Source: Phyllobacterium chamaecytisi (GTDB lineage: Bacteria; Pseudomonadota; Alphaproteobacteria; Rhizobiales; Rhizobiaceae). From it: 64,000 bases of DNA. The notes under the pieces are model-generated. The model had not been told where the DNA came from. It searched no databases and saw nothing but the letters and a program-made list of their open reading frames with translations. The stretch spans positions 248,001 to 312,000 of the forward strand of contig NZ_JAIQWW010000001.1 in assembly GCF_020164455.1 (NCBI RefSeq). Direction: 5' to 3'. Numbering within the stretch: position 1 is the stretch's first letter; the number at the start of each line of letters is the position of its first letter. Positions 13,210 through 30,437 of the stretch are shown piece by piece. The position numbers and the translations under genes are program-made.

Positions 13210-13301
13210 GGAGAGGTGGCCGAGTGGTCGAAGGCGCTCCCCTGCTAAGGGAGTAGACCCGTTAAACGGTCTCGAGGGTTCGAATCCCTTCCTCTCCGCC
13301 A
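13210..13301 (+). tRNA. tRNA-Ser (anticodon GCU)
   Basis: A full cloverleaf with the long variable arm of a serine tRNA. The acceptor stem GGAGAGG pairs with CCTCTCC. The anticodon loop reads CTGCTAA with anticodon GCT, the variable arm spans GTAGACCCGTTAAACGGTCT, and the T arm is GAGGGTTCGAATCCCTT. Discriminator G and an encoded CCA complete it. Its 3' end is the left attachment site of the integrated element and remains intact after integration. Confidence 0.96.
13288..13301 (+). other. attL core (tRNA 3' end)
   Basis: CTTCCTCTCCGCCA, the 3' acceptor strand, discriminator and CCA of tRNA-Ser(GCU), identical to the copy at the far end of the island. Use of a tRNA 3' end is typical of P4/phage-type tyrosine integrases such as the one encoded here. 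Confidence 0.8.
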
Positions 13302-13394
13302 CATCGCATTGTAATCATTGTGTTATTTGGCCTTTTCGAGGCGTTGTCATAACTTTTTGCATAACCGAGTATGCCACAGTGGTTACCGTCGCTG

Positions 13395-13778
13395 TTATTT
13401 TGGATTTTCCCCAAGGCCCCGCATAGCTTGGCCGCCCAACAGTCCGACGATGGCACCAAACCCAATCTTCGCCATGTCGAGCATTGAACTAAGCATTTTC
13501 TCCATCGTGTCAGGCATTTGATCGCCCTGCACAAGATGAACTGTCACACAAATGGCGGTAAATAGAACAGTGCCTGCAGCAGCAGTCAGAAACACCAACT
13601 TAAACGTCGAGTTAATCGGCGGGTGATTTGTGCTCTTGCCATTTGCCAGGTCCGTCAACGCAACTGAGAATTCTGGGTCATCAGTGCAAACATATTTTCC
13701 CAGTGTTTCGGACCAAATCGAAAGCCTACTAGGCGATTTGATACATTGTTTTACTACGGCCGCCATTTCCCCGATCAT
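13395..13778 (-). CDS. Membrane protein of unknown function, island left edge
   Basis: A 127-residue protein with a soluble N-terminal half, one clear membrane helix (FKLVFLTAAAGTVLFTAICV) and a second hydrophobic Gly-rich segment (IGFGAIVGLLGGQAM) near the C-terminus. The ATG at 13778 (MIGEMAAVVKQC) is chosen because GGGGGTGGGTA lies directly before it; the in-frame ATG at 13817 has no such site. It is the first gene inside the left attachment site and points toward the tRNA. No family is recognised. Confidence 0.6.
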   Translation of the reverse strand: MIGEMAAVVKQCIKSPSRLSIWSETLGKYVCTDDPEFSVALTDLANGKSTNHPPINSTFKLVFLTAAAGTVLFTAICVTVHLVQGDQMPDTMEKMLSSMLDMAKIGFGAIVGLLGGQAMRGLGENPK

Positions 13779-13923
13779 GTACCCACCCCCAAGGATATGT
13801 AAACACCAAGAAACCATATCACATTCCCCGGTCCTACGCAGGTGAGAAATTGCGCCCTAGCTCGATACAAACGCTGCCCTAGCGGGCGGAGTCAGTCCAC
13901 TGACGAGGAGCGCTCAACAAGAA

Positions 13924-13951
13924 AAAGGCCGCTGGTGGTTCAGCGGCCTTT
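13924..13951 (-). terminator. Rho-independent terminator on the minus strand
   Basis: An 11-bp perfect stem AAAGGCCGCTG / CAGCGGCCTTT with a 6-nt loop. Read on the minus strand it is followed by TTTTTC, so it ends transcription of the small gene at 14009-14278. Confidence 0.8.
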
Positions 13952-14008
13952 GCTCTGTGGTGGTTATCTTCTTCTCATCGTGGTGGTTCTCCTCCTACTC
14001 CGACTGAA

Positions 14009-14278
14009 TCAGGCCGCTTGGTGGTTTGGAAACTCAACGCCGACTGTCCGCAAAACGGCCTCGGCACGCGAGGAAGGCGGCGGAACCTCGCGCCAACTCC
14101 GACCGACCGGGAAATGAAAGCCCTTTGAAAAGGTGTTGCATGGCGCCAATTGGCGCGAGTGGTCGGCGGCAGGAAACAACTCTTCCTGCAAAAGACGAGC
14201 TTCCATTGTCAACCACTCCAGGTAGGCGTGACTGGTATCTCTGTCGGGTTCCTGCGAATGTGCGATCTTACTGGCCAT
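14009..14278 (-). CDS. Small uncharacterised island protein
   Basis: An 89-residue soluble protein beginning MASKIAHSQEPDRDTSHAYL, with a helical first third (LEWLTMEARLLQEELF) and a Pro/Ser-rich second half. GGAGAGAAGG lies just before the ATG, and a strong terminator follows 58 bp after the stop, which together support a real transcript. It is divergent from the XRE-nuclease pair. No family is recognised. Confidence 0.6.
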   Translation of the reverse strand: MASKIAHSQEPDRDTSHAYLEWLTMEARLLQEELFPAADHSRQLAPCNTFSKGFHFPVGRSWREVPPPSSRAEAVLRTVGVEFPNHQAA

Positions 14279-14361
14279 GACCTTCTCTCCAATTGATTAA
14301 TTTAGCTCAATATGATTTGTATCGCGCAAGACAAACACGTCTTCAAGCGGAAGTTATCATA

Positions 14362-14610
14362 ATGAGCGAAATTAATCAAATAACCGGACGCCAAATCGCT
14401 GCCGCTCGCGCTTTGACAGGACTTGGCCAGGTGGAACTAGCGGTGCAGGCTCATATCTCTGCACCAACCTTGAGGCGTATGGAGGCGGCGGGAAACGCTC
14501 CTATATCGCCGTCGAATAATTTGCGGGCGGTAGTATCTGCACTCGAATCCGCTGGCGTAATCTTCGTGCCGGAGAATGGAGAGGGCGCTGGAGTGAGGTT
14601 AAAGAAATGA
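14362..14610 (+). CDS. XRE-family helix-turn-helix regulator
   Basis: An 82-residue DNA-binding protein made of one XRE-type HTH (GRQIAAARALTGLGQVELAV, then SAPTLRRMEAAG) and a short C-terminal stretch ending FVPENGEGAGVRLKK, as in many small phage and control proteins. The ATG at 14362 (MSEINQITGRQ) follows GGAAG at long spacing. It overlaps the nuclease gene by 4 bp (ATGA), so the two are translationally coupled. It could be a controller of the nuclease, like a C protein, or a phage-type repressor. Confidence 0.8.
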   Translation: MSEINQITGRQIAAARALTGLGQVELAVQAHISAPTLRRMEAAGNAPISPSNNLRAVVSALESAGVIFVPENGEGAGVRLKK

Positions 14611-15494
14611 CAGCGTCTTCTGTAGCCCTTGAGCAGTTAGTTGCAAAAATACAGGCTGATTTGGCACCCAATTCTGATGTGGTGCACAACGTCATGCTGA
14701 ACGGACGTCATAGCGGTAGAAAACGCCAAATCGATGTGCTTGTTCGCGACAAGATCGGGCAGTACGAGATTTTGATAGTCATTGATTGCAAGGACTATAA
14801 CAAACCAGTCGACGTTAAGGGGGTGGAGGAATTCGCAGGCTTGGTGGACGACGTGGCTGCGCAGCGAGGTGTATTGGTTTGTCCAAAAGGATTTTCAGAG
14901 GCCGCGAAGAAACGGGCACAGACTTTGCAAATTGACCTATACAGCCCGATCGACACCGACCCTCATAAGTGGACTGCGCGCGTAACTGTTCCTGCGTTGT
15001 GCGATTTTCGAAGTGCCTCTATGTCGTTTCGCATTAAGGTTTCGTCGACACTTCCATGGAGACTTCCTGAAAAGTTCTACGAAGATTTGGATGTATTCGA
15101 TGAAAATGATGCGCCCCTTCAAAGCCCCTTAGATGCGGCATTGGACAAATGGAACGAGGGGAAATTTCCTATCGATATCGGAGTACATCAAGATATCGAA
15201 ATATATGACGGCATCGTAAAAGCCGATAGCGGCTACGATACGACTTTTCCTGTCAACTTGACGGTGAGCTTACGCGTGACTCGAAAACTATATTTTGGAC
15301 AATATCCGATCAAAAAATTTTCAGGTTTCAAAGACGAAGTGAAGGGCGAGATTATTGCCAATGCGTTCACTCTAGGTGCACTTGACCCGGAATTTGTCGA
15401 GAAACAATGGAAAGTAATTGCCGACGAGTCTGATGCTCCGGTGAAGCATGTAATCACGTTCATGGGCTTAGTGGGGTGGGCTACAGACAAGTAG
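14607..15494 (+). CDS. PD-(D/E)XK nuclease-like protein (Mrr/type IV restriction-like)
   Basis: A 295-residue protein. The N-terminal 130 residues look like a restriction-endonuclease-type PD-(D/E)XK fold: KRQIDVLVRDKIG, then ILIVIDCKDYNKPVDV, with Asp of QIDVL and the D-x-K of IDCKD as the expected catalytic set. These are followed by GVEEFAGLVDDVAAQRGVLV and the GFSEAAKKRA segment seen in Mrr-like enzymes. The C-terminal 165 residues are unrecognised and may sense a target or modification. It is coupled by ATGA overlap to the XRE regulator. Restriction of incoming DNA is the likely role. Asp in place of the usual Glu before Cys-Lys should be kept in mind. Confidence 0.75.
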   Translation: MTASSVALEQLVAKIQADLAPNSDVVHNVMLNGRHSGRKRQIDVLVRDKIGQYEILIVIDCKDYNKPVDVKGVEEFAGLVDDVAAQRGVLVCPKGFSEAAKKRAQTLQIDLYSPIDTDPHKWTARVTVPALCDFRSASMSFRIKVSSTLPWRLPEKFYEDLDVFDENDAPLQSPLDAALDKWNEGKFPIDIGVHQDIEIYDGIVKADSGYDTTFPVNLTVSLRVTRKLYFGQYPIKKFSGFKDEVKGEIIANAFTLGALDPEFVEKQWKVIADESDAPVKHVITFMGLVGWATDK

Positions 15495-15626
15495 TCCCGA
15501 TCGCTGCCTCGAAAGGCCCAATCTCCACAGCCGCCGACCCCACGACCCGCCACATACTACTCCGAACGGGTTCCCTCACACTTCCCTAAGTTCCCATCCG
15601 CGATAGCTAACCAGCAGAAGAATCGA

Positions 15627-15923
15627 GTGTCAGAAATTCTACCCACGATCTATACTCTCGACGAGGCGGCCGAGAAGATGCGATTGAAGCCTCGGGCGTT
15701 GGCAACATTCGCCCGAGAGCGAGGTTTCTGTTCAGTGATGGGCAGAACCATCCTTTTTAGTGAAAGCGACCTGGTGGCCATTTGGGAGGCGATGCGGTGC
15801 GAGCCATCCTCCGAGATCGCAAGCAAGCCTTTCAGCAGTCCTAATGGTGACATCGCCTTGAAAATGGCGAGGATAACTTTGCGGCAGAGGCCGGGAGGCA
15901 ACTCTAGGAAGCGCCCAAAATAG
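15627..15923 (+). CDS. Small HTH (excisionase/MerR-like) protein
   Basis: A 98-residue protein starting with GTG at 15627. Residues 9-55 (YTLDEAAEKMRLKPRALATF, then GRTILFSESDLVAIWEAMRC) have the winged-helix pattern of phage excisionases and AlpA/HTH-17 proteins. The C-terminus is basic (RITLRQRPGG, ending KRPK). It may serve as recombination directionality factor or as a transcription switch of the island. It stands alone between the nuclease gene and the small membrane-protein genes; the RBS AGAAGAA is modest. Confidence 0.7.
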   Translation: MSEILPTIYTLDEAAEKMRLKPRALATFARERGFCSVMGRTILFSESDLVAIWEAMRCEPSSEIASKPFSSPNGDIALKMARITLRQRPGGNSRKRPK

Positions 15924-16049
15924 GTATGCAAGTATCCTTCCCAACTAGCCTGCCGCGCGCTATCCTCGCTGCATGACCAGCCTCCACACACCTCCACCAA
16001 ACACGCTCGGGCGCCATAGGGGCGCACCGCGATTACGTGGAGAATTACA

Positions 16050-16250
16050 ATGTCGCCAGAACAACGTATTGAACAACTCGAAGGCAAGGTGCAGCAAGCG
16101 TACATTGTGATAGGAGTGTTATTGGCTGGCGCCGATCGCAACTCCCCTGACTTCGAAAGCAAGGAAGGCCAGCGGGCCTTAGATTATTTCGCGCATGAGG
16201 AATACGACGGCGACTTTTTGCCGTTCGTTCATCCGGGCGCGCGGAGATAA
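16050..16250 (+). CDS. Small uncharacterised island protein
   Basis: A 66-residue protein, MSPEQRIEQLEGKVQQAYIV at the start, with an N-terminal helix of coiled-coil character and an acidic middle (SKEGQRALDYFAHEEYDGDF). The only purine-rich site before the ATG is GTGGAG at moderate distance. Composition is protein-like and no family is recognised. It precedes a membrane-protein gene by 35 bp on the same strand. Confidence 0.55.
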   Translation: MSPEQRIEQLEGKVQQAYIVIGVLLAGADRNSPDFESKEGQRALDYFAHEEYDGDFLPFVHPGARR

Positions 16251-16285: not shown

Positions 16286-16756
16286 ATGAATCTAATGTCC
16301 TACCTCTTCATGTATGCCTTGGACGTGGCACTCGCCGGAGTAGCTGCAAACTTCATACACCCACCAATGCCGACATTCCTGTTCGTGCTGGCCATCCTTT
16401 GGCTCGGGCCAATCGTGCTCGGATTCTGGGGATTTGTTAAATTTTGGGTGTTCTACCATCTTTACTTTAAAAAAAGACTTGTGCGGGCCATTCTCGCAGA
16501 TTTCTATGGGTCAAAGTTTCCCGTAGCAACTGAGTTCTTCGACATGGAAAGCTACGTCGAACACATCAGTCATAGTGCTGATGTCCCCGAGGCAGCAAAA
16601 ATGCGCGCCTCCGGAGCAGTCGGGATGGTACAAGCCTATCAATTTACCAAGCCGCTTACTATGAAACTCGCCTATATGGCAGCGTTTGAAGAAGCGATGA
16701 ATAGATATAGGCCGAACGAGTTTTTAGCCGAGTATAGACAGCCAGGAACAGAGTAG
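16286..16756 (+). CDS. Two-helix membrane protein, unknown
   Basis: A 156-residue protein. Residues 1-60 hold two long membrane helices (YLFMYALDVALAGVAANFI and FLFVLAILWLGPIVLGFWGF), and the remaining cytoplasmic part is mixed helix with a Tyr/Arg-rich end. The start at 16286 (MNLMSYLFMYALD) is preceded by GGGGGAT. It lies 100 bp upstream of the DUF6161-like gene on the same strand. Small membrane proteins next to large effectors are common in defence cargo. No family is recognised. Confidence 0.6.
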   Translation: MNLMSYLFMYALDVALAGVAANFIHPPMPTFLFVLAILWLGPIVLGFWGFVKFWVFYHLYFKKRLVRAILADFYGSKFPVATEFFDMESYVEHISHSADVPEAAKMRASGAVGMVQAYQFTKPLTMKLAYMAAFEEAMNRYRPNEFLAEYRQPGTE

Positions 16757-16855
16757 GCAACAACAAGACCACTGCGACAATTCAACTTGCAATCCTTCCC
16801 TACCCCACGCATAGATTGCGAAAATGGGGTTCAAGAAGCCGTAAGGCGGGGTAAC

Positions 16856-18058
16856 ATGGCTGTAATTGCTAAGTCGTCAGATATATTTCTCGAGTTGGAT
16901 TTTGGGCCCGAAAATGGAACCGTTAAATTTATCTCAATAGATGAGGTCAGAGCTTTTATTGAGACAGAATTTGCGGCATGGCAGTGGCTCTCCCAACCTC
17001 CTGTCATTAGTTCAGTAAATCAACCTTGGAATATCATTCAAAACCAAATCGCGAATGCGAGAAACTACGCACAGCGAGTGACGGATGCCGATCTAACCCA
17101 CTTGCAAGGCCTCAGCGCAGCCCTCGACAACGCGTTCGGTGTCCATCGAATTCCTTTAACGGTTTCGCGGGTATTTCAATTTATTGAGGAACTGAGGTCC
17201 GAATCGGCAATTACTGCTGCCGCAGCCATCGCTACCTGGATGAATTTAGGAGGTGTCGACACCTCCAAGTTTGCTCAACTTAAGGGCTCTGTATTGATGG
17301 TCGCATTCGACGCTGAGATAACGTCGAAAACACCAGTGGCCGTAAAGCGATCGCTGGAAAAGCTTAAGCAGCAGTTTCACGACTCTCGGGTCGCAACTGA
17401 AACAGAAGTCATAAAACATCACAACAATTTCAGATCTGATAGGTTGGCATTGCGAAAGGCGATGGCGCGCATGCTACGGCAGAGCAGAAAGGATTTAAGG
17501 AATTTTCGCGACCGAAAAGCGGTAGAGGTTGCCGAGTCGATTAAGAGCCTCGACGATACCCAAACTCTATACAGAGAACACATGAGAATTAAAGGGCCTG
17601 TTGAATATTGGTCTCATAAAGCAAGCGCGCATCGAACTTCCGCATTGAGTTACCGAACGAAACTGATGGTTTTCGCCGCCGTCGCAACAATTATTCTAGT
17701 GGGTTCACTGTACTTTTTGGCCAGCCACGCCATCGAAGTGGCGAATGCCGACAAGCCTCCAGCGGTTTATCTCATCCTAGTGACACTTGGTGTTGTCATC
17801 ACCACCATAGTTTTCTGGGTGGCGAGGATTATAACAAGGCTGTTCCTTAGTGAACATCACCTCGCTATCGACGCCGAAGAACGTTCTGTGATGGCGCAAA
17901 CATATCTAGCTCTTACAGCCGAAGGTTTAGCGTCAGACAAAGAGAGGGAGATCGTTCTCGCATCGCTATTTAGACCAACTGCGGATGGCATTGTGAAGGA
18001 TGACGCCGCGCCCGACCTATCTCCAGCCTCACTGATTTCGAAATTGGGTTCGCGGTAA
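16856..18058 (+). CDS. DUF6161-like membrane protein with coiled coil
   Basis: A 400-residue protein. The N-terminal third is soluble, residues ~190-270 are a long basic coiled coil (RSDRLALRKAMARMLRQSRK and following), then two membrane helices (FAAVATIILVGSLYFLASHA and YLILVTLGVVITTIVFWVAR), and a C-terminal segment RLFLSEHHLAIDAEERSVMA with TYLAL. That last motif I associate with the DUF6161 family; this is recall, not a search. The ATG at 16856 follows AAGGCGGGGT, so the open frame upstream to 16787 is not used. Family function is unknown. Membrane anchoring plus coiled coil suggests an effector or sensor in the island's defence cargo. Confidence 0.7.
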   Translation: MAVIAKSSDIFLELDFGPENGTVKFISIDEVRAFIETEFAAWQWLSQPPVISSVNQPWNIIQNQIANARNYAQRVTDADLTHLQGLSAALDNAFGVHRIPLTVSRVFQFIEELRSESAITAAAAIATWMNLGGVDTSKFAQLKGSVLMVAFDAEITSKTPVAVKRSLEKLKQQFHDSRVATETEVIKHHNNFRSDRLALRKAMARMLRQSRKDLRNFRDRKAVEVAESIKSLDDTQTLYREHMRIKGPVEYWSHKASAHRTSALSYRTKLMVFAAVATIILVGSLYFLASHAIEVANADKPPAVYLILVTLGVVITTIVFWVARIITRLFLSEHHLAIDAEERSVMAQTYLALTAEGLASDKEREIVLASLFRPTADGIVKDDAAPDLSPASLISKLGSR

Positions 18059-18303: not shown

Positions 18304-20091
18304 ATGTATTTAAAAAGTATTGAGCTCGAAAACAGTGGGCCTATTGCCTACCTTTCTTATCAATTTTCGTTTGATGCCGAGGGGAAACCAAAGCCGGTCG
18401 TATTCGTCGGACAAAACGGATCGGGTAAGAGCGTACTACTCTCCCACATAGTCAACACGATGATAACAGCAAAAGGTGCAGCCTTTACCGACGCAGAGGT
18501 AGAGTCTGGCAAGGTCTACAAGTTACGTAGTGCAGATTATATTCTTCATGGTGCAAACTACTCACGATCCGAAGTTAAATTTCAAAATGATCTATACCAA
18601 TCCGAATTCCAGCTTAGATTACCCAGGGGAGTTTTTGAAGAAAAACTGGGATATACTTCTATTGATAGTGCCTGGAACAACCTTGGCTTGAAAGACAATA
18701 CGGGACTCGCTTCGAATTTTCACGAAAAGGCTGACCAAATAAAGGACGCACTTCTTAATTTTAGCCTCTTATATTTCCCTGCAAACCGATTTGAGGACCC
18801 GGCTTGGTTGAATATCGACAATCTTCTTAATGTGGCAACCTACACGCACCACAAGAATATAGCGGGTGTGTCGAATCGCAAGATAATCAACTATTCGCCC
18901 TTGCGCGACAATCAGAATTGGCTGCTGGACATTTTGTACGACAGCTTTGCTCTTGAAAGGACAGTCCATTCCATCAAAGTCGGGGAACCAGCTATTATGC
19001 TACCTGTCATGGTGGAAGGAACTGGTCCGGCAACGAAATTGAGACAAGAGATTGAACGATTTTTCCTGACGTTGTTCCAAAGAGAAGGAGCACTCAACTG
19101 GAATGTAGGTCAAAGAGGGAGACGGCAATTAGCTTTGATTGGCGCGGGTTCTCCGATCGCCACAAATCTTTTTACACTCTCAACCGGACAGACTGGCCTC
19201 TTGAACGTATTTCTGACGCTGATAAGAGACTATGATCTTTCCAGAGCTCAATTTAACTCCTTAGCCGATGTTCGAGGCATTGCAATCATAGATGAAGTCG
19301 ATTTGCACCTTCACACGGAGCTACAACATACAATTTTGCCAGCTTTGATCGCACTGTTTCCTAAAGTTCAATTTGTGCTTACAAGCCATTCGCCTCTCTT
19401 TATCTTAGGCCTTCAAAAAGTACTCGGGAATGAAGGTTTCGATATCATTGAATTGCCGTCAGGTCAGCTGGTCGGCGTGGAGCGTTTTTCCGAGTTTGAA
19501 AAGGCATATAGGTACTTCAAGGATAGCGCACAATTTGAGGAAGATGTCCGGTCGTCGATTGTCAGCAGCCAAAAGCCTGTCCTTTTTGTAGAGGGATCAA
19601 TCGACGTTGATCTACTACAACAAGCAGCCGAATTGCTTGGACGACGTGAAAGTCTCGATAAGTACCGACTTTTGGACGCCAATGGCTATGGCGGCCTCGA
19701 CAAAATTTGGAAGCATTTCGATTCCCACCTCGCTCAATTAATGAACCAGCGAGTCACCTTGTTATATGACTGCGATGTTAGTAAATCGAACTCTAGCAAG
19801 CCAGGGGTTCGACGTCTTGCCATGCCACAACAGCAACGACGTTTGAAAAAGGGAATAGAAAATCTCTTTCCCGAGACTCTCATTCAACAGGCAAAAGAAG
19901 AACATCCAAAATTTATAGATGTCACCCCATCGTATGAAAAGCTCGTGCGGGGATCAGGTGTCATGGTGGATGAGCAATGGGAGGTCAACCCAGACGAGAA
20001 GAGAAACCTAGCAAATTGGATACTAGATAAAGCCACGGCTAATGACTTCGCTGATTTCTCGTCCATTTTCGATACAATCGACGCTGCTTGA
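18304..20091 (+). CDS. OLD-like AAA ATPase with TOPRIM-like domain
   Basis: A 595-residue protein of the SMC/RecF-like ATPase class. Walker A is GQNGSGKS at residues 36-43, the signature region is LSTGQTGLLNVFL near 296, Walker B is GIAIIDEVDLHLH near 325, and the switch His lies in LTSHSPLFILG. The C-terminal third begins KPVLFVEGSIDVDLL (about 425-439) and continues to LLYDCDVSK near 487, giving the Glu and DxD pattern of a TOPRIM metal site as in OLD nucleases and GajA. It appears to act alone: no UvrD-like (GajB) partner is adjacent. The 245 bp before it hold no gene. A phage-defence nuclease is the likely role, by family analogy. Confidence 0.8.
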   Translation: MYLKSIELENSGPIAYLSYQFSFDAEGKPKPVVFVGQNGSGKSVLLSHIVNTMITAKGAAFTDAEVESGKVYKLRSADYILHGANYSRSEVKFQNDLYQSEFQLRLPRGVFEEKLGYTSIDSAWNNLGLKDNTGLASNFHEKADQIKDALLNFSLLYFPANRFEDPAWLNIDNLLNVATYTHHKNIAGVSNRKIINYSPLRDNQNWLLDILYDSFALERTVHSIKVGEPAIMLPVMVEGTGPATKLRQEIERFFLTLFQREGALNWNVGQRGRRQLALIGAGSPIATNLFTLSTGQTGLLNVFLTLIRDYDLSRAQFNSLADVRGIAIIDEVDLHLHTELQHTILPALIALFPKVQFVLTSHSPLFILGLQKVLGNEGFDIIELPSGQLVGVERFSEFEKAYRYFKDSAQFEEDVRSSIVSSQKPVLFVEGSIDVDLLQQAAELLGRRESLDKYRLLDANGYGGLDKIWKHFDSHLAQLMNQRVTLLYDCDVSKSNSSKPGVRRLAMPQQQRRLKKGIENLFPETLIQQAKEEHPKFIDVTPSYEKLVRGSGVMVDEQWEVNPDEKRNLANWILDKATANDFADFSSIFDTIDAA

Positions 20092-22791: not shown

Positions 22792-23061
22792 TTAAAGAAC
22801 TCGACCTAGAATGAAGGCTGTGACTGCTAGTATTGGGGTGCCAATTATCATCGCAATCAACCAGACGAACGCCGCGAAGAACGGTTTTGCGCTTGTGAGT
22901 TCATGGTATCGCATTTGGAAGTACGCGCCTAAGACCGCACCAACCCCCATGATTTGCCACATATGAACGAAAAGAATTCGGCCAATAATCATTCCGACGA
23001 TTAGGCCAAATGCTGGCGATAAGACCCGTAGAACGTCCTTGAATGTGCTATTTGTTTCCAT
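22792..23061 (-). CDS. Small membrane protein, unknown
   Basis: An 89-residue protein with three predicted helices (VLSPAFGLIVGMIIGRILFV, MGVGAVLGAYFQM, FVWLIAMIIGTPILAVTAFI). The start is uncertain: METNSTFKDVLR at 23061 gives a clean cytoplasmic N-terminus, while an ATG at 23097 would add 12 residues and has no better RBS. It is convergent with the KAP gene. A holin or immunity-type role is possible, but nothing in the sequence proves it. Confidence 0.5.
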   Translation of the reverse strand: METNSTFKDVLRVLSPAFGLIVGMIIGRILFVHMWQIMGVGAVLGAYFQMRYHELTSAKPFFAAFVWLIAMIIGTPILAVTAFILGRVL

Positions 23062-23136
23062 TACCCGCGTTGGTAAAGGACGCACGTTAAACCGCATTCA
23101 AAATGACGGGTAATATTTTACGGAATTCGTTGATTT

Positions 23137-23511
23137 TCACGGACCCAAGATATCGTCGTCTGCAACGTTCTCAGAAGGCCAATTCAACTTACCAGCACTA
23201 GCAGGCGTGGCGCCAAGTTGCCCTAAGACTTGTCGCAAAAGTTGCATACCAGGCACGCCTAAAGACGCAGTCTGAACCTGTGCCTGGAGTCGCGCTGCAA
23301 TTCCAACGACGCAACGATGACTACCATTGAGCCACGGCAAACGTTTCTCAAATTCCCGCCACGCTGCCGCTTGCTCTTTGGTCAGCCATGCAGGCGGTTT
23401 TCCAAGTGGTTCGTTGACGACGAGCTCGGCTCGGTTGCGGTAGCGCTGTGGATTTTTGGCAGCGGCGCCCGAGATACGGGCCGCACCAAGTGGTTTTCGT
23501 GGTGGTGCCAT
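23137..23511 (-). CDS. Terminase-small-subunit-like phage protein
   Basis: A 124-residue protein with a Pro/Arg/Ala-rich start (MAPPRKPLGAARISGAAAKN) then NEPLGKPPAWLTKEQAAAWR, FEKRLPWLNGSHRCVVGIAA and RLQAQVQ, the lead-in and helical layout of small phage packaging subunits that mark DNA for the large terminase. The start at 23511 follows GGGGGT. It is the last gene of the phage module, 112 bp after the prohead protease. No large terminase is present, so it would need a helper's packaging motor. The family call is moderate. Confidence 0.55.
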   Translation of the reverse strand: MAPPRKPLGAARISGAAAKNPQRYRNRAELVVNEPLGKPPAWLTKEQAAAWREFEKRLPWLNGSHRCVVGIAARLQAQVQTASLGVPGMQLLRQVLGQLGATPASAGKLNWPSENVADDDILGP

Positions 23512-23623
23512 AAATTTTACCCCCATTGTTTGATATGTGGACGTGCGCGCGAAGGCCCCACAACGGTCCGCGAAAAACCGCGTTTTGAGGGATTTGACCC
23601 ACCCCTCCCCATAAGGCTAGGCG

Positions 23624-24184
23624 CTAGTTAAGCCTGATCCTACGCGCCTTGAGGTCGAGCTCAATTTTCCGCCGAACAATCTCGCTTGCGCGGTGCGCTT
23701 CCAACGACCGCAACGCGGCGCTGGTGTTGCTGTAAGCGGGCCAAGTAACGATACTGACCTCATACAGGGTAATCTCTGTCAGAGTGCGAACTGGCAAACT
23801 GGTACCATCAACCCATGTCTCGGCTCGGACGCCGAATCCAAAGCTGCACTCCTTCAAATCCCGCCGACCAACTAGGCCTGTGATAGCCTGTCCATCCGGT
23901 GTCGACGGGTCAACGGTTAGCTCATACCGCAAACCCTTCGCGTCTTCGGCAAGCTTGAGCGTGCCGTTGCTCATTCGGCCGAGCACGCGCCCGTGGTCAT
24001 GATGAAGGAGGAAAACCACGTCATTCTCACGTAACGATCTAGCAAAGGCGCCTGGCTGAATTTTCTCGACAAACTCGCCAGCAATCACGGCCTCAGTGTG
24101 GAACGTTGCGGCGTAGCCGCTAATGATGTTGGCCTTTGGGTTATCCAGGGCACTGGCACGGGTTTCGAAGTCAGCGCAAGCCAT
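23624..24184 (-). CDS. HK97-family prohead maturation protease
   Basis: A serine protease (186 residues) that cleaves capsid scaffold and capsid protein during head assembly. Visible marks are GYAATFHTEAVIAGEFVEKI, GAFARSL, the catalytic-His segment VVFLLHHDHGRVLGR, the nucleophile segment KECSFGFGV, and TLYEVSIVTWPAYSNT. Length is normal for the family. The start at 24184 (MACADFETRA) follows GGAGCG and overlaps the previous small gene by 14 bp. No major capsid gene follows, where one would be expected. The protease may act on a helper's capsid or be a relic. Confidence 0.88.
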   Translation of the reverse strand: MACADFETRASALDNPKANIISGYAATFHTEAVIAGEFVEKIQPGAFARSLRENDVVFLLHHDHGRVLGRMSNGTLKLAEDAKGLRYELTVDPSTPDGQAITGLVGRRDLKECSFGFGVRAETWVDGTSLPVRTLTEITLYEVSIVTWPAYSNTSAALRSLEAHRASEIVRRKIELDLKARRIRLN

Positions 24185-24359
24185 GCTTACGCTCCAACGC
24201 CTGCAATCGTGCCTCACGCTTTGCGGCCGGAGATTCCCTGCGCATAGAACGGGCGATGGCGACGGGATCAGAGTTCAATCTAATATCCAGCGGCTTGCCT
24301 CGCACTAAAATCTTACGCGGCGCATTCCCGCGCTTGGCCTGGGCCTTTTCAATCGCCAT
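24171..24359 (-). CDS. Small basic phage-type protein
   Basis: A 62-residue, very basic protein (MAIEKAQAKRGNAPRKILVR start; ends RLQALERKHGLR). The ATG at 24359 sits just after the preceding gene's stop. An earlier in-frame ATG at 24386 would overlap that gene by 26 bp. It overlaps the prohead protease start by 14 bp, so it belongs to the same transcript. It could be a nucleic-acid-binding or assembly factor. No family is recognised. Confidence 0.55.
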   Translation of the reverse strand: MAIEKAQAKRGNAPRKILVRGKPLDIRLNSDPVAIARSMRRESPAAKREARLQALERKHGLR

Positions 24360-24360: not shown

Positions 24361-24924
24361 TTAATAGCCCGCCCTTTTGGCTTCACCTAGCCAGCGAGGA
24401 ACGTGGCCGTCGCGATAGTCGCCGAGGAATGCCGGAGTCATCGGAACAAGTGAACCCCAACTAACGTCGTTCGCGTCTAGGTCGGAACGCAGTTCATCGT
24501 AGTGTGCGCGTGCAACCTGTACCTGTTCGAGGGCCTCGGCCATCGCTTTGACGCGGCGAGCATACTCAGGTTTGACCTTTGCGCAGACTGCCAGGCTGGC
24601 TTTTGAACGAGCGTCGGCGAGCCTGATTCTTATGATTTCCAGCGCATTCGCGATGGTCTTTAGATGGGTATCGATTTCACCCACTCGCTGCCGTGAGGTC
24701 GCTTTTCCCGACACCGGATCGCCTAACAGTGCGGCAACCTTGGGATCAACTTCTCGGCTGGTATCCGCCCGGATTGACGCGACAAGCCCGACGCGCTCGG
24801 CGGTAAACTTTGCCTGCTGGTCGAGGAGGTCGCGCTGCTTAGCGACCAATTCGGCGTAGGCGGGATCAGCGTCGGCAAGCGACGGCACGACGAATGGTAC
24901 GGTTTTCTGTTTTAGCAATGACAT
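24361..24924 (-). CDS. Coiled-coil phage-type protein, unknown
   Basis: A 187-residue protein, largely alpha-helical, with long Lys/Glu/Ala heptad-like stretches (AELVAKQRDLLDQQAKFTAE and VKAMAEALEQVQVARAHYDE) and a Trp/Gly-rich C-terminal tail. The start at 24924 follows CGGAGA, and only 2 bp separate it from the upstream gene's stop. Its position just upstream of the protease module recalls phage genes of accessory or scaffold type. I cannot name a family. Confidence 0.6.
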   Translation of the reverse strand: MSLLKQKTVPFVVPSLADADPAYAELVAKQRDLLDQQAKFTAERVGLVASIRADTSREVDPKVAALLGDPVSGKATSRQRVGEIDTHLKTIANALEIIRIRLADARSKASLAVCAKVKPEYARRVKAMAEALEQVQVARAHYDELRSDLDANDVSWGSLVPMTPAFLGDYRDGHVPRWLGEAKRAGY

Positions 24925-24926
24925 GG

Positions 24927-25448
24927 TTATTCTCCGAATAGATCGTCAATGGCGGCAGCGATGGCGCGGCCTGGTATAGTGACTGCCCGGCGATGATGTG
25001 GGTCGGCCCAATGGGAATGAAGTGCGCCAGGCTCGCGGAAACGAGTAATACTGTCGGAGCCGTAGATGGACACCTCTCTCCAATTTTGAACGATATCGAT
25101 CTGAACGTCGGCAAGTTCATTAGGAAGGATGAAAAAGTAATTTAGCCTTGTGCCGACTGTGGCGTATTTTGCCTTCACGCTTGCGGGCATGTTTGGGGTA
25201 TCAAATCCAGGCTCGCCGAGCTCCCGATATCGAGCGACCTCTGCGGGAATTGCTCGCAATGGCACATCCAAAGATGAGCCGATAAGGATATCGAGGAAGT
25301 GGATCAGTTTTATTTCGGGCGGCCTGTGTGGTCCGCCAGCGGGAATGCTGCCCGCTTCGGTCAGTTTAACAGCCACAGAGCGACAGCGCTCGATGGGAAA
25401 GCCGACGCGCGCAGATATCGCTTCGACGGCCTGATTGGTTGTTGGCAT
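24927..25448 (-). CDS. Uncharacterised phage-type protein
   Basis: A 173-residue soluble protein. The N-terminus (AVEAISARVGFPIERCRSVA, then LTEAGSIPAGG) may be a winged-helix DNA-binding domain. The middle contains VPLRAIPAEVARYRELG, and the C-terminus is His/Arg-rich (HSHWADPHHRRAV). AAGGAG before the ATG is strong. The next gene starts 2 bp after its stop, so the two are cotranscribed. It may recognise DNA, but no family is recognised. Confidence 0.6.
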   Translation of the reverse strand: MPTTNQAVEAISARVGFPIERCRSVAVKLTEAGSIPAGGPHRPPEIKLIHFLDILIGSSLDVPLRAIPAEVARYRELGEPGFDTPNMPASVKAKYATVGTRLNYFFILPNELADVQIDIVQNWREVSIYGSDSITRFREPGALHSHWADPHHRRAVTIPGRAIAAAIDDLFGE

Positions 25449-25733: not shown

Positions 25734-26987
25734 CTATGCGGCCATCGAAATGAATTCGTCGACCGCCGAGTTAATCTCTTCGACGCCTTTTCGTTCGGCC
25801 GTCTTCCCTTGATATCCCATCGCCTGGCCTATCTCGCTGGCCCTGGCGTCTGTCGTCGCCATATCCAGGTAATAGACTGTCTTGGCGCTAAGTTTGGCCT
25901 TTGCGTTCTTGAAGTCTATTCGCTCGATCATTGCGTCATCCCATGATCGCGTTGAGCCACCAAATGTTTCGTTTCCAGCAATGCGCATACCGATAAACGA
26001 CGGCATATTGTCTTGAAACCCGCCGTATTCTGTTCGCGGAAGAGCCGGGCCATTCAATTTTGTTATTCCGCCAGTGTATGCGGTCTTGGCTGCGTCGTAT
26101 TCGGCTTGCGTCCAATCGGCGCCGGGCTTGCCGCCTTTTGTCGTGTAATATTTTATAGCTCGGCTGACCTTTGACGCCGCGCTGTACCGCTCGACGCCTT
26201 CGCTAGGATACTTCGAAGCCGGTAGCGTCGTGGGAAAGTCTGTACCAATACCCGCGAGAACTGCGACCAGGTGACGATTTGACAAAACAGTGGCGTCTTT
26301 GGTTCGTTGGTCGAAGAGCTCTTCTAGTTGCTCGTCTTTCGACTTGTGCATGGCTACACCCTTCGGCTTGCGATACTCCTCCCATGGGTTGCGCCATTTT
26401 CCATCGCTGCTCCGCCATTTGGTAAGCCGACCTTTCGAATCGAATTGAATTCCATCCTTTCCGGCATTGGTCACCTCGTTAACGGTGGGGCGGATTTTAT
26501 AAATCCGTTCGACTCCCATTTCGCTTAGGAGCTCCGGCGAGTTGTGATTTGTCGCGATCGGAGGCGCTACAGAGTTGTCGTTTGCAGCGGCGTACTTCGC
26601 TAGGCTTTCCGCCCTTGTCTCGTCTCCGGCGCGAATATAGCGCGTTGCGGTTGGCCAGGCCTTGACCTGATCTATGTCGGAGTCCCACTTCGGCAGCCTG
26701 GCCATGAATGCCTCGCGCGCCATATGCCATTCCCGAGCGCACTCTGGCGTCGTAGGGCCGTCATGCGGTTGAGTGGTCGCGCGACCGATGCGAGGTTGTA
26801 ATGTCGCGGGCGTAAACCTGATTTGGCTATATAACGCTGATCGCTCCATTACTATTCGCTGGTCGAGGTCGAGAACGACCGGCGTTCCCCTCGATTCATA
26901 TTCCGTTGTATTTGTGCGATCGAGCGTCCTTTGCGATGAGTAAAGTCGACGGCCTTCCGGTAATACCTTGAAGCGATTCCAGGTCAT
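25734..26987 (-). CDS. Uncharacterised 417-residue protein downstream of the replication gene
   Basis: A soluble protein with no recognised domain. Visible blocks are GRPLS-free acidic/basic mixed sequence, a central KDGIQFDSKGRLTKWRSSDG patch followed by KWRNPWEEYRKPKG, and a C-terminal half with YSAASKVSRAIKYYTTKGGK. The start overlaps the preceding stop by 4 bp (ATGA), so it is translationally coupled to the putative initiator. A role in replication or in hijacking a helper is possible by position only. Base composition is like the rest of the phage module. Confidence 0.6.
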   Translation of the reverse strand: MTWNRFKVLPEGRRLYSSQRTLDRTNTTEYESRGTPVVLDLDQRIVMERSALYSQIRFTPATLQPRIGRATTQPHDGPTTPECAREWHMAREAFMARLPKWDSDIDQVKAWPTATRYIRAGDETRAESLAKYAAANDNSVAPPIATNHNSPELLSEMGVERIYKIRPTVNEVTNAGKDGIQFDSKGRLTKWRSSDGKWRNPWEEYRKPKGVAMHKSKDEQLEELFDQRTKDATVLSNRHLVAVLAGIGTDFPTTLPASKYPSEGVERYSAASKVSRAIKYYTTKGGKPGADWTQAEYDAAKTAYTGGITKLNGPALPRTEYGGFQDNMPSFIGMRIAGNETFGGSTRSWDDAMIERIDFKNAKAKLSAKTVYYLDMATTDARASEIGQAMGYQGKTAERKGVEEINSAVDEFISMAA

Positions 26988-28192
26988 GCCGCCCTCACAC
27001 TGGAACGGCCAAAGCCAAGCCCTCCGCCCGGTAGGTTCATCGCAAGAATTGGCATTCCTATCGGAGAATCGCCCGCGTGCTTTTTGAACTGAACGCAGGC
27101 TGATGATTTCGTTTCCATTGTGTATTGGATTACCTCGCCTTCGCGATCGCCATCCATGTACTGCAAACCCAACTCGACGTTTGCCCGGCTTTCCGCATAT
27201 CCGGTAATCCGCATTTCTTGCGTCAGAGTTGGCAAGATGAGTTTGCCATATGACGGCTTATTGGAATTGGCTGGTGCAGCCCGGTCGGCCTCGTCATACT
27301 TCTCTGCGGCCAGCCACTTTTCTAAAGGCATACGTTTCTGGCCTGGCTTTGCGGATAACGCCCACGACTTGGCGCGCTCAACCATTCTTTGAGCAAGGTC
27401 GGCATCTGGATTGATGGAAAGAAAGGCCTCTCTCGATTTCTGTTTGTTGCCTAGCCTCCCATAGGCCAGCCATAGTCGATTAAAGGCAAGCTCTTGACCA
27501 TCTATGATTGCCGTGGCCCCAAGGCCAAACGGCACATCATTAGATGATACTGTACCCCTAACTATATCCCCGTCTTTATACGGGTCTAAGTTAGTTGAGT
27601 CTTTGGGTACCCCGAGGTCTCCGGTTGAGGGGATAACTGGGTACCCCGAGGTATCCATTACTGGGTACCCCGAGGTCTCCGGTTGGGAAAAAGTGCACAA
27701 GTTAGAAGTGTGCGAATTACTGGGTACGTCGGGGTATCCAGTCGGATTTATGCAACCCCATTTGGAAACGATTACCGGAGGCACACTTATTGAAATGTCG
27801 TGTGGAAACTTCCCGCTTGAGGCTTGTTCCAGTAGGTGAAAGTTTGGCCACCAGCGCGAGGCATTACCCTTGCCAGCGCCCTTTTCGACAAGCGCGAGGA
27901 ATTTCCAATCTATAAGTTCGTCTTGAGCCTTCCTTATGGATTTTCGCGCCAGACTCCATCTGCCCCCAAATGAGCCGCGAAGGTCAGACTCCATGAATCG
28001 TTCTGATGCGAGCGAAGTCCATTTGTATTCTTCGTGCGAGCGACGCAAATGGAAACGCCAGACAATTACGTGACGAAGCGCTATGCCAGGATAACCAAGG
28101 ATTAGCTCGTTCAGCTTGTCGCGACCCAGTAACGAATGTGGGTCTGTCACGTCTTTCATCCAGTACGATACTGTTCGAGGTTCGAAACTCAT
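26984..28192 (-). CDS. Putative replication initiator (phage O/Rep-like)
   Basis: A 402-residue protein. The N-terminal ~130 residues look like a winged-helix replication domain (HEEYKWTSLASERFMES, WSLARKSIRKAQDELIDWKF). The middle is low-complexity with repeated SGYPV units, and the C-terminal part includes LAFNRLWLAYGRLGNKQKSR, as in phage/plasmid initiators with a helicase-loader tail. The repeated DNA in the middle (27604-27739) is iteron-like, recalling lambda O, whose gene contains the origin. It sits in an ATGA-coupled run with genes on both sides. The function is inferred from this architecture and position, not from a clear signature. Confidence 0.55.
   Translation of the reverse strand: MSFEPRTVSYWMKDVTDPHSLLGRDKLNELILGYPGIALRHVIVWRFHLRRSHEEYKWTSLASERFMESDLRGSFGGRWSLARKSIRKAQDELIDWKFLALVEKGAGKGNASRWWPNFHLLEQASSGKFPHDISISVPPVIVSKWGCINPTGYPDVPSNSHTSNLCTFSQPETSGYPVMDTSGYPVIPSTGDLGVPKDSTNLDPYKDGDIVRGTVSSNDVPFGLGATAIIDGQELAFNRLWLAYGRLGNKQKSREAFLSINPDADLAQRMVERAKSWALSAKPGQKRMPLEKWLAAEKYDEADRAAPANSNKPSYGKLILPTLTQEMRITGYAESRANVELGLQYMDGDREGEVIQYTMETKSSACVQFKKHAGDSPIGMPILAMNLPGGGLGFGRSSVRAA
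27604..27739. repeat. Four iteron-like direct repeats inside the initiator gene
   Basis: Four copies of TGGGTACCCCGAGGTNTCC start at 27604, 27638, 27662 and 27721. The first and third extend to GGTCTCCGGTTG; the fourth is diverged (TGGGTACGTCGGGGTATCC). Each contains the palindrome GGGTACCC or a remnant of it. They encode the SGYPV peptide repeats. Such tandem sites inside an initiator gene are a common origin design. Replication function is inference. Confidence 0.7.
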
Positions 28193-28479
28193 GCTGCCAC
28201 CAATGCGGCCTTGCGCTTGGCGCGTTGCTTCCTATTTTTGTCTAACTCTTCCTCGATTGCGCGTTCTCGCTCATAAATTTCGCGTTCGCTGTCGATTGCT
28301 CGGCGCAACTCCTTGCGTATGGCGCGAATCTTCTTCCTAGCGTAGGAAATTGTGGCTTGGTCGCCCTCTGTTAGGGCCTCGTAAAGGAAGGTTTCGCACG
28401 CGCCAATATTGCACTCTGCAAGCTCTCTAATATGCTGCGCGGACAAGCCCAATTTGCGAGAAATCATAAGGCCGTTCAT
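28189..28479 (-). CDS. Small charged coiled-coil protein
   Basis: A 96-residue protein. The first third looks like an HTH (LMISRKLGLSAQHIRELAEC), the rest is a long charged helix (KKIRAIRKELRRAIDSEREI then YERERAIEEELDKNRKQRAK). It overlaps the AlpA-like gene upstream and the initiator gene downstream by 4 bp each, making a coupled three-gene run. It may be a DNA-binding accessory factor for replication or regulation. No family is recognised. Confidence 0.6.
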   Translation of the reverse strand: MNGLMISRKLGLSAQHIRELAECNIGACETFLYEALTEGDQATISYARKKIRAIRKELRRAIDSEREIYERERAIEEELDKNRKQRAKRKAALVAA

Positions 28480-28679
28480 GCGGCCACCTGGCGCGCGTCA
28501 ATGCGATCTTGTACCCAAGCCAAGACCTCCGCACGCACGAAGGCGATACGGCGCTCTCCCAAACTTACCTCAACGGGAAAATTGCCGCGTTCCCGAAATT
28601 TATTGATTGCGGTACGACTTAGAGAGGTAAGTTCGCAGACATGATTGAGTGAAACTAGTCGTGGGGTGTTATCGTTCAA
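28476..28679 (-). CDS. alpA: AlpA-like regulator / excisionase
   Basis: A 67-residue DNA-binding protein with the AlpA/HTH-17 pattern: LVSLNHVCELTSLSRTAINK, FRERGNFPVEVSLGERRIAF, VRAEVLAWVQDRIDAR. AlpA proteins switch on integrase or island genes in CP4-57 and many phage satellites. Here it is the first gene of the replication run and lies 109 bp from the gene that precedes the integrase, the usual order in P4-like and PICI-like elements. The assignment to the AlpA family is firm; its target is inferred. Confidence 0.8.
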   Translation of the reverse strand: MNDNTPRLVSLNHVCELTSLSRTAINKFRERGNFPVEVSLGERRIAFVRAEVLAWVQDRIDARQVAA

Positions 28680-28787
28680 AGCGTCCTCCTTTAGTTGTTG
28701 GATGACGCCTGTTATAGCTATAATGACATTGGTGAATACCTAGGCGAATAAGACATTCACTTAGGGTATTTTATTGTTATTTTACAA

Positions 28788-29141
28788 TTAGATAGCATCG
28801 CTCTCGTCTTTGCCTTTGTCGTAGTAAGTAAGACATGCCTCAACGTGTTTTCCACTTCGGCCGCAAAACCTGGCAAGCTCCTCGACCCGATGCTTTCGCT
28901 TTGACATACCTTCGTCTTCGAGCCGGATGTTTTCCATTGCTATTTCGTACCACATGTACAAACCAACTGGCTGGCCGCCCCTCTTTGCGTCAAACAATCC
29001 GGCCACAAGACGTTGCGTCTCAGGCTTGGCTTCACCGGCAGCAAGCGCTTTCAAGGCAAGCTCGATAGCTTCCTCCCGCTTACGGTGGTTCAGCAGTTTT
29101 CGAATCTCGAATGCCGTCAAATCTATGTTAAGCTTAGCCAA
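28788..29141 (-). CDS. Uncharacterised protein coupled to the integrase
   Basis: A 117-residue helical protein (MAKLNIDLTAFEIRKLLNHR start; REEAIELALKALAAGEAKPE). The segment VGLYMWYEIAMENIRLEDEG and the C-terminal ARFCGRSGKHVEACLTYYD follow. Its start overlaps the end of the integrase gene by 8 bp, so it follows the integrase on one transcript. It might be a directionality or regulatory factor. I recognise no family. Confidence 0.6.
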   Translation of the reverse strand: MAKLNIDLTAFEIRKLLNHRKREEAIELALKALAAGEAKPETQRLVAGLFDAKRGGQPVGLYMWYEIAMENIRLEDEGMSKRKHRVEELARFCGRSGKHVEACLTYYDKGKDESDAI

Positions 29142-30297
29142 CGTAATTGCTCCAATCTTCCATTAGCTTGCGCCTTTTTTGCAGGGCATCGCTTCGCCGG
29201 TAAGCAGCCTCGACTCCGCCAATAACATGAGCGAGGGCCTGTTCAGCAACTTCGCGGGGATGGCTAGTCATATCGCCAGCCCAATCGCGGAAGCTAGATC
29301 GCAATCCGTGAAGGGTGGCCGCGCCATCCTTAGGCGCCGCCAGGCGCAAGGCCTTTGTCATTGCGGTATCGCTGATCGGGCGGCCGTCGCGGCCACCGCC
29401 GAAAACAAGGTCTCCTGTCGCTCGCTCTTCCTGCGACTCAAGGATGGTGAGTGCTGCATCTGTAAGAGGTACACGATGCTCTACACCCGCCTTCATACGG
29501 TCGGCGGGTATCGTCCAGAGCTTCTTGGCCTTGTCTATCTCTTGCCAAACCGCGCCGCGAGTTTCACCCGAGCGCGCCGCTGTCAAAGTGCTAAACTCAA
29601 CAGCACGCGCCGCGACGCCTTTCGACGTGCGTAATTTCTTCACCATCGCGGGAATGTCTGAGTAGGCGAGGGCGGCATGGTGGCCGCGACCAAGTTTTTG
29701 GCGCGCAGGCATCACTTTATCGAGCAACCCTTTCCAGCGGGCCGGATTGCCCGCCGTGCGCCATTCGTGGGCTATCCCGTAGTCAATGACCGCTTGGATA
29801 CGGGAACGTAGGCGATCGGCTGTCTCGGGCCGTGCTTGCCAGTGGGGAGCGAGGCATTCCTTTACGTCACCCATTACAATGTCTGCGATCGGCATGTCGT
29901 GAAGCGGCTTGGCATATTCACGCAAGGTCATAAGCCACTGCTGCTTATGCTTCTCGTTTTTCCAATCGTCCTTCTTTGTCTCAAGCAATGCCTTCATACA
30001 GTGCTCAAACGTTATGACTTTAGCTGGCCGCTTGTCAGTACGTGGATCATCGCCACGAGCAAGCTGGCCGCGAATTACTTCTGCCTTTTCGCGGGCGAGG
30101 GCTAAAGGAACGGGCGCAGTACCTTGGCCATAGCCACCAAGACCTATTTCGTTACGCTGGCCTGCTCGCTTCCACACGAATACCCAATTGCGGCTACCGC
30201 CTTTTTGCACGCGAATATATAGACCATCGCCGTCGCCATAAATTCCAGGTTTTTCCAGCGATTTCACCTTGGTTTCAGATAGCTTATTCTTCGCCAC
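29134..30297 (-). CDS. int: Tyrosine site-specific integrase (phage/P4 type)
   Basis: A 387-residue recombinase that inserts and excises the island at tRNA-Ser. The N-terminus has the DUF4102-type arm-binding pattern (LSETKVKSLEKPGIYGDGDG, LYIRVQKGG, WVFVWKRAGQRNEIGLGGYG). The catalytic domain shows the first Arg in AARSGETRGA, HGLRSSFRDWAGD with the HxxR pair, and the nucleophile Tyr in HVIGGVEAAYRRSD. All key residues are present. It lies 127 bp inside the right attachment repeat and reads inward. The start MAKNKLSETK at 30297 is typical. Confidence 0.95.
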   Translation of the reverse strand: MAKNKLSETKVKSLEKPGIYGDGDGLYIRVQKGGSRNWVFVWKRAGQRNEIGLGGYGQGTAPVPLALAREKAEVIRGQLARGDDPRTDKRPAKVITFEHCMKALLETKKDDWKNEKHKQQWLMTLREYAKPLHDMPIADIVMGDVKECLAPHWQARPETADRLRSRIQAVIDYGIAHEWRTAGNPARWKGLLDKVMPARQKLGRGHHAALAYSDIPAMVKKLRTSKGVAARAVEFSTLTAARSGETRGAVWQEIDKAKKLWTIPADRMKAGVEHRVPLTDAALTILESQEERATGDLVFGGGRDGRPISDTAMTKALRLAAPKDGAATLHGLRSSFRDWAGDMTSHPREVAEQALAHVIGGVEAAYRRSDALQKRRKLMEDWSNYVG

Positions 30298-30423
30298 AAA
30301 AAGTCTCCGCCAAACTCAATTTCGATTCCCGTTATCATAACCGCCAATTTGACCTTATTAACTTTATTGGCAATTACAATGGGTTACGGACGGAAAAGTC
30401 AGCAAAAACGGCGGAGAGGCGGA

Positions 30424-30437
30424 CTTCCTCTCCGCCA
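30424..30437. other. attR core, with overlapping hairpin
   Basis: The 14-bp copy of the tRNA-Ser 3' end. It is also the right arm of a hairpin, GGCGGAGAGG (30410-30419) against CCTCTCCGCC (30427-30436), 10 perfect base pairs with a 7-nt loop. There is no T run after it on either strand, so a terminator role is not supported. Confidence 0.75.

Follow-up and report, generated by a model that had tools for sequence, protein, structure and literature searches.

Phage-inducible chromosomal islands (PICIs), including the SaPIs that carry a small terminase subunit (TerS), combine an integrase, an AlpA-type regulator, a replication initiator (Rep) with its own origin, their own TerS, a tRNA attachment (att) site and defence cargo, and they hold no complete set of virion genes. 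The same features are found in an island of 17,136 bp at a tRNA-Ser(GCU) gene of Phyllobacterium chamaecytisi, within the 64,000-nucleotide stretch analysed here (the window, G000:C1:248001-312000, from a genome, G000, of 6.36 Mb in 93 contigs). We regard this island as quite probably a PICI-like phage satellite of a family that recurs in Rhizobiaceae and its order. It differs from PICIs in having an HK97-type prohead protease but no capsid gene, together with a predicted long-helix protein (p187) for which no relationship to known scaffolds is detected. The SaPIs make small heads with the helical scaffold mimics CpmB and Rcm (PMC12409344).

Capsid-forming PICIs (cf-PICIs) encode a major capsid protein (MCP), protease, portal, connectors, the large terminase subunit (TerL), TerS and an HNH protein (PMC10690885). 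The island resembles them in its integrase/AlpA/Rep end, its TerS and its prohead protease, and some of its relatives also have HNH, whereas MCP, portal and TerL are absent from the island and are all detected by the same hidden Markov models (HMMs) in the cf-PICI-like element of genome G433, from which the MCP HMM was partly built. The PLE satellites have ICP1 as helper and carry TcaP/CapR-type genes; no such names occur among the matches of the island proteins, in libraries whose coverage of these families was not checked. The relatives of the island resemble the PLE satellites in encoding their own tape measure, but host and helper are different, some of the relatives have tail fibres and most have a prohead protease, and chimeric tails are known from the PLEs. 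In PMC12987554 (Nature 2026), PLE satellites are shown to have a tape measure gene and to form chimeric tails; according to that paper no other satellite had been reported with such a gene, although it also shows putative tape measure genes in a sampling of cf-PICIs. The occurrence of tape measures in satellites has therefore been published already.

P4-like satellites are small islands with an integrase and AlpA, and the preliminary description of this DNA had likened the gene set both to them and to phage-inducible islands. The resemblance extends to the integrase, AlpA and a small island with defence genes. The libraries scanned hold models for the P4 alpha-type primase, Sid, Psu and Delta, and none of these families is found among the island proteins; the P4-like half of the comparison is accordingly dropped and the PICI-like half is retained. 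Defence hotspots on the small P4-like islands are described in PMC11364771. Two further satellites bear on the comparison, namely AH14b of Pseudomonas, which has 16.8 kb, an integrase and AlpA, and no terminase or structural gene found (PMC4936722), and MiniFlayer, which has its own short tail fibres but its own capsid genes too (PMC10690885). In a literature search that was not exhaustive and met papers partly in excerpt, no satellite tail fibre of the present kind and no prohead protease without a capsid gene were found, and the present family did not come up either.

A tRNA-bounded island with a packaging module

The island occupies window positions 13288-30437, its length being counted from the first base of one repeat to the first base of the other. 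The 14-bp core CTTCCTCTCCGCCA is the 3' end of the tRNA-Ser(GCU) gene (13210-13301) at 13288-13301 (attL, plus strand) and recurs as an exact copy at 30424-30437 (attR, plus strand). These are its two exact occurrences in the window, with zero reverse copies, and a given 14-mer is expected by chance about 0.0005 times in 64 kb (both strands) and 0.05 times per genome. An unoccupied tRNA-Ser site is present in the related genome G018, in which the left flank (96.5% identical) abuts the right flank (97.8%) with exactly these 14 bp in common; neither Rep nor the p187 profile has a match in that genome. The exact duplication of the tRNA 3' end around a block of about 17.1 kb, which the preliminary description had proposed together with a search for the empty site in relatives, holds to the base, and the island is a precise tRNA insertion. 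The G+C content is 53.8% in the island core, 48.2% in the cargo and about 57% in the flanks. The core repeat occurs three times in the whole genome, and the third exact copy is on contig C7 (G000:C7:24372-24385, L068), about 240 bp downstream of a tRNA-Phe gene; the bases on either side of it likewise resemble the island attR, and it is perhaps a relic of another insertion.

Read from attR, the core genes are all on the minus strand and are arranged as integrase, a 117-aa protein, AlpA, a 96-aa protein, Rep, p417, p173, p187, an S78 protease and TerS. Family scans covered 20 island proteins; three further open reading frames (ORFs), probably spurious, lay outside the scan. The protease (197 aa, 23624-24217) belongs to the HK97 family, with a match to PF04586 at 7e-45 and to TIGR01543 above its cut-off, and its H73 and S125, which we take to be the catalytic pair, are invariant in all five aligned members. 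TerS (129 aa, 23137-23526) matches phrog_83 at 1.8e-8. Neither the protease profile nor TerS has a match among solved structures by sequence. No TerL, portal or tail family is matched among the scanned proteins, and the matches to head families are either weak and at chance level or represent the protease aligning to the protease parts of protease-capsid families. Additionally, a six-frame scan of the island with tape measure, MCP, TerL and portal HMMs finds none of them, and TerS and the protease are detected.

Two proteins, p173 and p187, are encoded ahead of the protease. For p187 (24361-24924, minus strand), the model obtained with AF2 (AlphaFold2) is a predicted long-helix rod with helices at residues 21-53 and 73-151 (predicted local distance difference test score, pLDDT, 88.9). 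It has zero matches in 50,697 phage records and 72,556 plasmid records, and its 63 pattern matches in viral contigs include no relatives; a contig scan of genomes with query A8 yields four relatives among 69 pattern matches. The predicted structure has no Foldseek match at E<=0.001, and in a sequence comparison with solved structures only coiled-coil-like and ferritin matches are obtained, at E 0.03 or worse. The neighbouring p173 (24927-25448, minus strand) is predicted to have a helical, winged-helix-like N-terminal part and a beta domain (AF2 pLDDT 90.7), and it is possible from this model that it is a regulator; an assignment as a MerR regulator was rejected, the MerR-type matches being weak only.

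The tyrosine integrase (387 aa, 29134-30297) matches PF13356, PF22022 and PF00589, and the AlpA-type excisionase/regulator (67 aa, 28476-28679) matches PF05930 at 7.5e-12 and phrog_2790 at 6e-11. Of the two small proteins, the 117-aa one (28788-29141) has no family at a useful score and the 96-aa one (28189-28479) has only a weak, chance-level match to a head family (phrog_581, E 0.008). Rep (402 aa, 26984-28192) has a modest match to phrog_270 (1.1e-5) and contains within its gene an origin-like array of iterons on the minus strand (27604-27734), with CCTCGGGGTACCCA at 27604-27617, 27638-27651 and 27662-27675 and a degenerate copy at 27721-27734. The gene holds 84 near-repeat pairs, compared with at most 16 in 20 codon shuffles. 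The number of pairs exceeds all 20 shuffles in each of the eight Rep genes examined out of at least 13 relatives found; the pairs cluster 300-600 nt into the gene, and the repeat sequences differ among the eight. An origin inside the initiator gene is known from lambda O, and the repeats in these genes have the layout of such a putative origin. A conserved hairpin after the iterons is not claimed, since the score relative to the largest of 10 shuffles is higher in two of the eight genes, equal in five and lower in the window. Rep has no match in phage or plasmid records; its relatives are present in 5 of 20 genus genomes and 8 of 297 family genomes (own genome counted). The remaining core protein, p417 (417 aa, 25734-26987), matches phrog_36072 at 1.9e-7, a family match that assigns no function; it has distant relatives in two Rhizobium/Sinorhizobium phages and no match in viral contigs, and among 397 order genomes it is present in its own genome alone.

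Much of what the preliminary description had read from the letters is borne out by these searches. The integrase, the AlpA-like switch and a Rep with internal repeats are upheld by the Pfam and PHROG matches and the codon-shuffle test, the prohead protease and TerS-like protein by PF04586, TIGR01543 and phrog_83, and the absence of capsid, portal, tail and TerL by the agreement of the family scans with the six-frame scan. The profile-HMM search that it had recommended for every island protein matches the expected core families and none for TerL, portal or tail. In a broad sense the island has the genetic features of a PICI: an integrase with direct repeats, AlpA near the integrase, Rep with a predicted origin, TerS by homology and no TerL, portal, capsid or tail, the protease being an addition to this set.

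Related islands in Rhizobiaceae and its order

Elements akin to the island occur repeatedly in this family and the order around it, mostly with about 17 kb and a common, incomplete set of phage genes. The single p187 sequence finds relatives in 4 of 397 order genomes, and the p187 profile in 13 of 394 family genomes (8 of 109 genera) and in 5 of 367 class genomes, three of them weakly (own genome counted in each case). Flanking repeats were sought at 23 loci including the window, and four further loci (L098, L102, L127 and L128) lay outside the test. Twelve of the 23 are bounded at both ends by tRNA-borne direct repeats of 14-53 bp, in tRNAs for six amino acids. Their lengths are 17,136 (window), 17,156 (G613), 17,068 (G003), 16,339 (G595), 17,765 (G677), 17,403 (G007), 17,292 (G433), 15,704 (G480), 17,119 (G707), 17,411 (G608), 18,315 (G069a) and 17,724 bp (G409), that is 15.7-18.3 kb with a mean of 17,203 and a standard deviation of 642.

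The gene content of the bounded elements was assigned with HMMs and PHROGs, the PHROG comparison taking in part of the relatives' ORFs. The protease is detected in 11 of the 12, Rep in 10, p173 and p187 in 9 each, the integrase (with this HMM) and AlpA in 7 each (three of the latter weak) and TerS in 6, counts that are descriptive because the HMMs for Rep, p187, p173, protease, TerS, tape measure, MCP, integrase and AlpA were partly built from the same elements and the hits are partly circular. Where p187 occurs in a bounded element the protease comes next, separated from it by no more than a small ORF (9 of 9; in G007, p187 is in two pieces, split over two frames), and the protease precedes TerS in all five in which the HMMs detect both. 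An MCP is found in two (G003 and G433) and never together with p187. The TerL and portal HMMs, which were built from four phages only and could miss other phage types, match G433, the positive control, and none of the other 11. In the 16 host genomes TerL (phrog_2) is present in 15 and the portal (PF04860) in 14, which indicates that these families are detectable there, and neither lies within 50 kb of an element on its contig; this search covered elements other than those of G595 and G433 and is limited by contig ends in G557, G558 and G620. The nearest TerL or portal, in G557, is about 57 kb away. In genome G069 neither phrog_2 TerL nor PF04860 portal is found.

A third possibility to be weighed beside satellite and prophage is an integrative island at a tRNA gene that spreads by conjugation or natural transformation and in which the phage-like genes are passengers. 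An integrase, AlpA and Rep would also fit an integrative mobilisable element, but no relaxase or transfer family is found among the 20 proteins scanned, the order of the packaging module is conserved across genera, and a narrow size range is unexpected for conjugation. We consider this explanation highly improbable.

Tail genes distinguish most of the relatives from the window copy. A tape measure of their own is present in 10 of the 12 bounded elements and is not found in the window or in G007, and tail-fibre families match proteins of G677, G707, G608 and G069a; the window copy has neither tape measure nor fibre. This suggests another explanation, in which the window copy is a stranded defence island, a once-active satellite that has kept its integrase and packaging module, has lost the reprogramming of the tail and is inherited vertically. 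The missing tape measure and fibre fit such a history, as do the G007 relative, in which the tests likewise detect no tape measure and which has the split p187, and the lack of a matching TerL in the same genome. However, all core ORFs of the island are open, its length is close to the family mean, and the unoccupied site in a 97% relative indicates a gain or loss not long ago, so that we judge a stranded island to be rather unlikely.

Several relatives extend the range of the family, and the family as a whole is of greater interest than the window copy by itself. The sister type of G012, G003 and G001 has MCP, TerS, tail tube, tail completion and tape measure genes, and no protease was found in it. 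The element G433:C3:71783-89089 (L061 with L083) is a 17.3-kb cf-PICI-like element in tRNA-Ser(GGA) with TerL, portal, protease, MCP and tape measure. In G595:C9:9978-26341 (L065 with L081), the same integrase/AlpA/Rep end, with an integrase 58% identical to that of the window, is joined to a protease (phrog_4523) and a tape measure (phrog_35707/phrog_28) from unrelated phage families, and on sequence the morphogenesis module of G595 seems to have been re-fitted to different helpers. A second copy in G069 (G069:C1:1613000-1632900, L100) is apparently decayed, with its p187 and protease matches split over frames, and is flanked by non-tRNA direct repeats at a spacing of 24.6 kb.

Candidate helpers and a proposed mechanism

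The best phage matches of the island TerS and protease are Rhizobium and Labrenzia siphophages. Two genomes of the same genus, G001 and G011, hold complete prophages like RHph_Y3_1 (MN988490), with TerL 78% and 69% identical to that of the phage and with TerS, portal, protease, MCP, tail genes and tape measure; G001 also holds a sister-type satellite. Against RHph_Y3_1 and these prophages the island shows identities of 41-47% in TerS and 44-49% in the protease (47-49% against the two prophages), and the prophage AlpA and integrase are 52% and 44-47% identical to its own. Unlike the island, they have the complete gene set of a siphophage, including TerL, portal, MCP and tail genes; their gene order is TerS-TerL-portal-protease, and they have no match to p187.

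These similarities would also fit a decayed RHph_Y3_1-like prophage that had acquired defence genes and no longer kept those for TerL, portal, capsid, tail and lysis, and p417, with its distant phage relatives, points the same way. The preliminary description had held that full morphogenesis genes nearby, or in close relatives at the same att site, would make the island a decayed prophage; the complete prophages of the genus lie at other loci. A simple deletion could not produce the order of protease before TerS, p187, p173, p417 and Rep have no match in the two prophages, and p187 has none in phage records. A similar reduced gene set of similar size recurs across genera and in different tRNAs, the core ORFs are open, and the six-frame scan finds no remnants of TerL, portal, MCP or tape measure. 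The reversed gene order, the lack of prophage or phage-record matches for p187 and of prophage matches for p173, and the 11 of 12 bounded elements without TerL and portal make a decayed prophage unlikely, and the genus prophages, with their related integrase, AlpA, TerS and protease, are better read as candidate helpers.

On the satellite reading, we infer the mobilisation, the helper and the role of p187 as follows. Once a helper phage has entered the cell or been induced, the integrase and AlpA would excise the island, and Rep would copy the excised DNA from the iterons. The island TerS would then join the TerL of the helper, which is proposed to be a RHph_Y3_1-like siphophage, and island DNA would be packaged. 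The p187 rod and the island protease may cause the capsid protein of the helper to be assembled and matured into a small head of about 17 kb, leaving the helper genome outside; head size would thus probably be redirected, with packaging under a size limit. The least certain step is p187, for which a scaffold or head-size switch is our best guess, held with slightly less than even confidence, given that it consistently precedes the protease, that the elements with an MCP lack it and that SaPIs have helical head-size switches. Most bounded relatives would supply a tape measure as well, in some cases with a tail fibre, and the window copy holds PifA, OLD-like, AbiZ-like and Mrr-like genes instead.

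More tentatively, and with somewhat less confidence than in the role of p187, the family may rewrite the helper particle at three points, namely the DNA (TerS), the head (p187 and protease) and the tail (tape measure, in some with a fibre). A limit of about 17 kb would set tail and defence genes in competition, the window copy would have traded tail for defence, and G595 would look as if the module were re-fitted for each helper. If true, this would be a satellite type of Alphaproteobacteria that has a head-maturation protease but no capsid gene, with a route of head redirection unlike Sid, CpmB, Ccm and TcaP, and the capacity of such an island for defence genes would be explained by its narrow range of lengths and exchangeable contents. 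To the tape measures newly reported for satellites (PLE, 2026) the relatives would add tail fibres, by which a satellite may choose its own recipients, and a host range chosen by the satellite would become testable.

Several points weigh against the satellite reading. Around G012, G001, G620, G370, G558 (two loci), G577, G557 (two), G069b and AR07 the DNA searched yielded no tRNA repeat; the stretches searched were mostly 30-60 kb, in which very long elements would be missed, and in several of these loci the contig or stretch ends. The G069b locus has non-tRNA direct repeats on either side at a spacing of 24.6 kb, and if these were its ends the size rule would not hold. TerS is detected in only half of the bounded elements, the HMM counts are partly circular, and the TerL and portal HMMs derive from few phages. 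The window copy, without the tape measure of most relatives, could be an impaired member. Additionally, p187 has no structural or sequence match to any scaffold, and a relationship to the delta domain of the HK97 MCP was rejected (hhalign E 0.089, probability 0.6%).

A RHph_Y3_1-type TerL is likewise missing from G000 itself, and a prophage-like region of that genome was rejected as helper for this reason. This region (G000:C1, about 466000-524000; L130-L132) is siphoprophage-like, with a tape measure 39-45% identical to that of RHph_Y3_1 and a TerL of another type. A cluster resembling a gene transfer agent (GTA) is also present (G000:C1:176657-204800; L042 and L043), with TerL, portal, a 408-aa ORF containing an S78 protease, tail-like genes and a 1280-aa ORF. 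GTA particles hold a few kb, and the cluster was rejected as a carrier because a 17-kb unit would not fit them.

Defence cargo and adjoining DNA

The cargo is encoded mainly on the plus strand and begins with an Xre-type control protein (14293-14610; PADLOC Control_protein, 1.9e-11) whose gene overlaps that of a 295-aa Mrr-type restriction-endonuclease-like protein (14607-15494; PF04471, Mrr_cat, 2e-11). These are followed by a 98-aa HTH_17/excisionase-like protein (15627-15923; PF12728 at 4e-4, below cut-off, and phrog_66 at 1e-3) and two small proteins, one of which is a 156-aa putative membrane protein of no family (16286-16756). The AbiZ-like protein (DUF6161, 423 aa, 16787-18058) matches PF19658 at 4.8e-25 and PADLOC AbiZ at 2.8e-16, and the 595-aa OLD/PtuA-like ATPase (18304-20091) matches PADLOC PtuA-like at 2e-32, with a weak C-terminal TOPRIM match. 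The last is a 756-aa PifA-type KAP NTPase, a phage-exclusion protein (20481-22751; PADLOC PifA at 1.4e-263, 875 bits; PF07693), to which the best-listed plasmid copies, from Rhizobium, Phyllobacterium and Sinorhizobium, are 44-47% identical. The nuclease/NTPase cargo of defence type that had been noted from the letters is recognised in the PifA, AbiZ and PtuA-like (PADLOC) and Mrr_cat matches; the NCBIfam defence models QatA and PtuA match the cargo below their cut-offs only. Two putative membrane proteins read from the sequence, with no family, are encoded on the minus strand, one of 140 aa near attL (13395-13817) and one of 101 aa beside TerS (22792-23097).

Defence-type genes are also found in relatives, with a dCTPase in G613, a dGTPase in G608 and PDC-M36A in G069 (3 of 10 proteins tested). 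The dCTPase-type gene at L062:15256-16845 and the dGTPase-type gene at L125:17841-19373 represent anti-phage cargo in two of these elements. To the right of the island, the block at 30438-45598 of the window seems to represent a second insertion, which includes a sugar-type ABC transporter: beyond the tRNA-Ser gene, G009 and G013 first match the right side of the window from about position 45598, and the first part of the block is common to G018.

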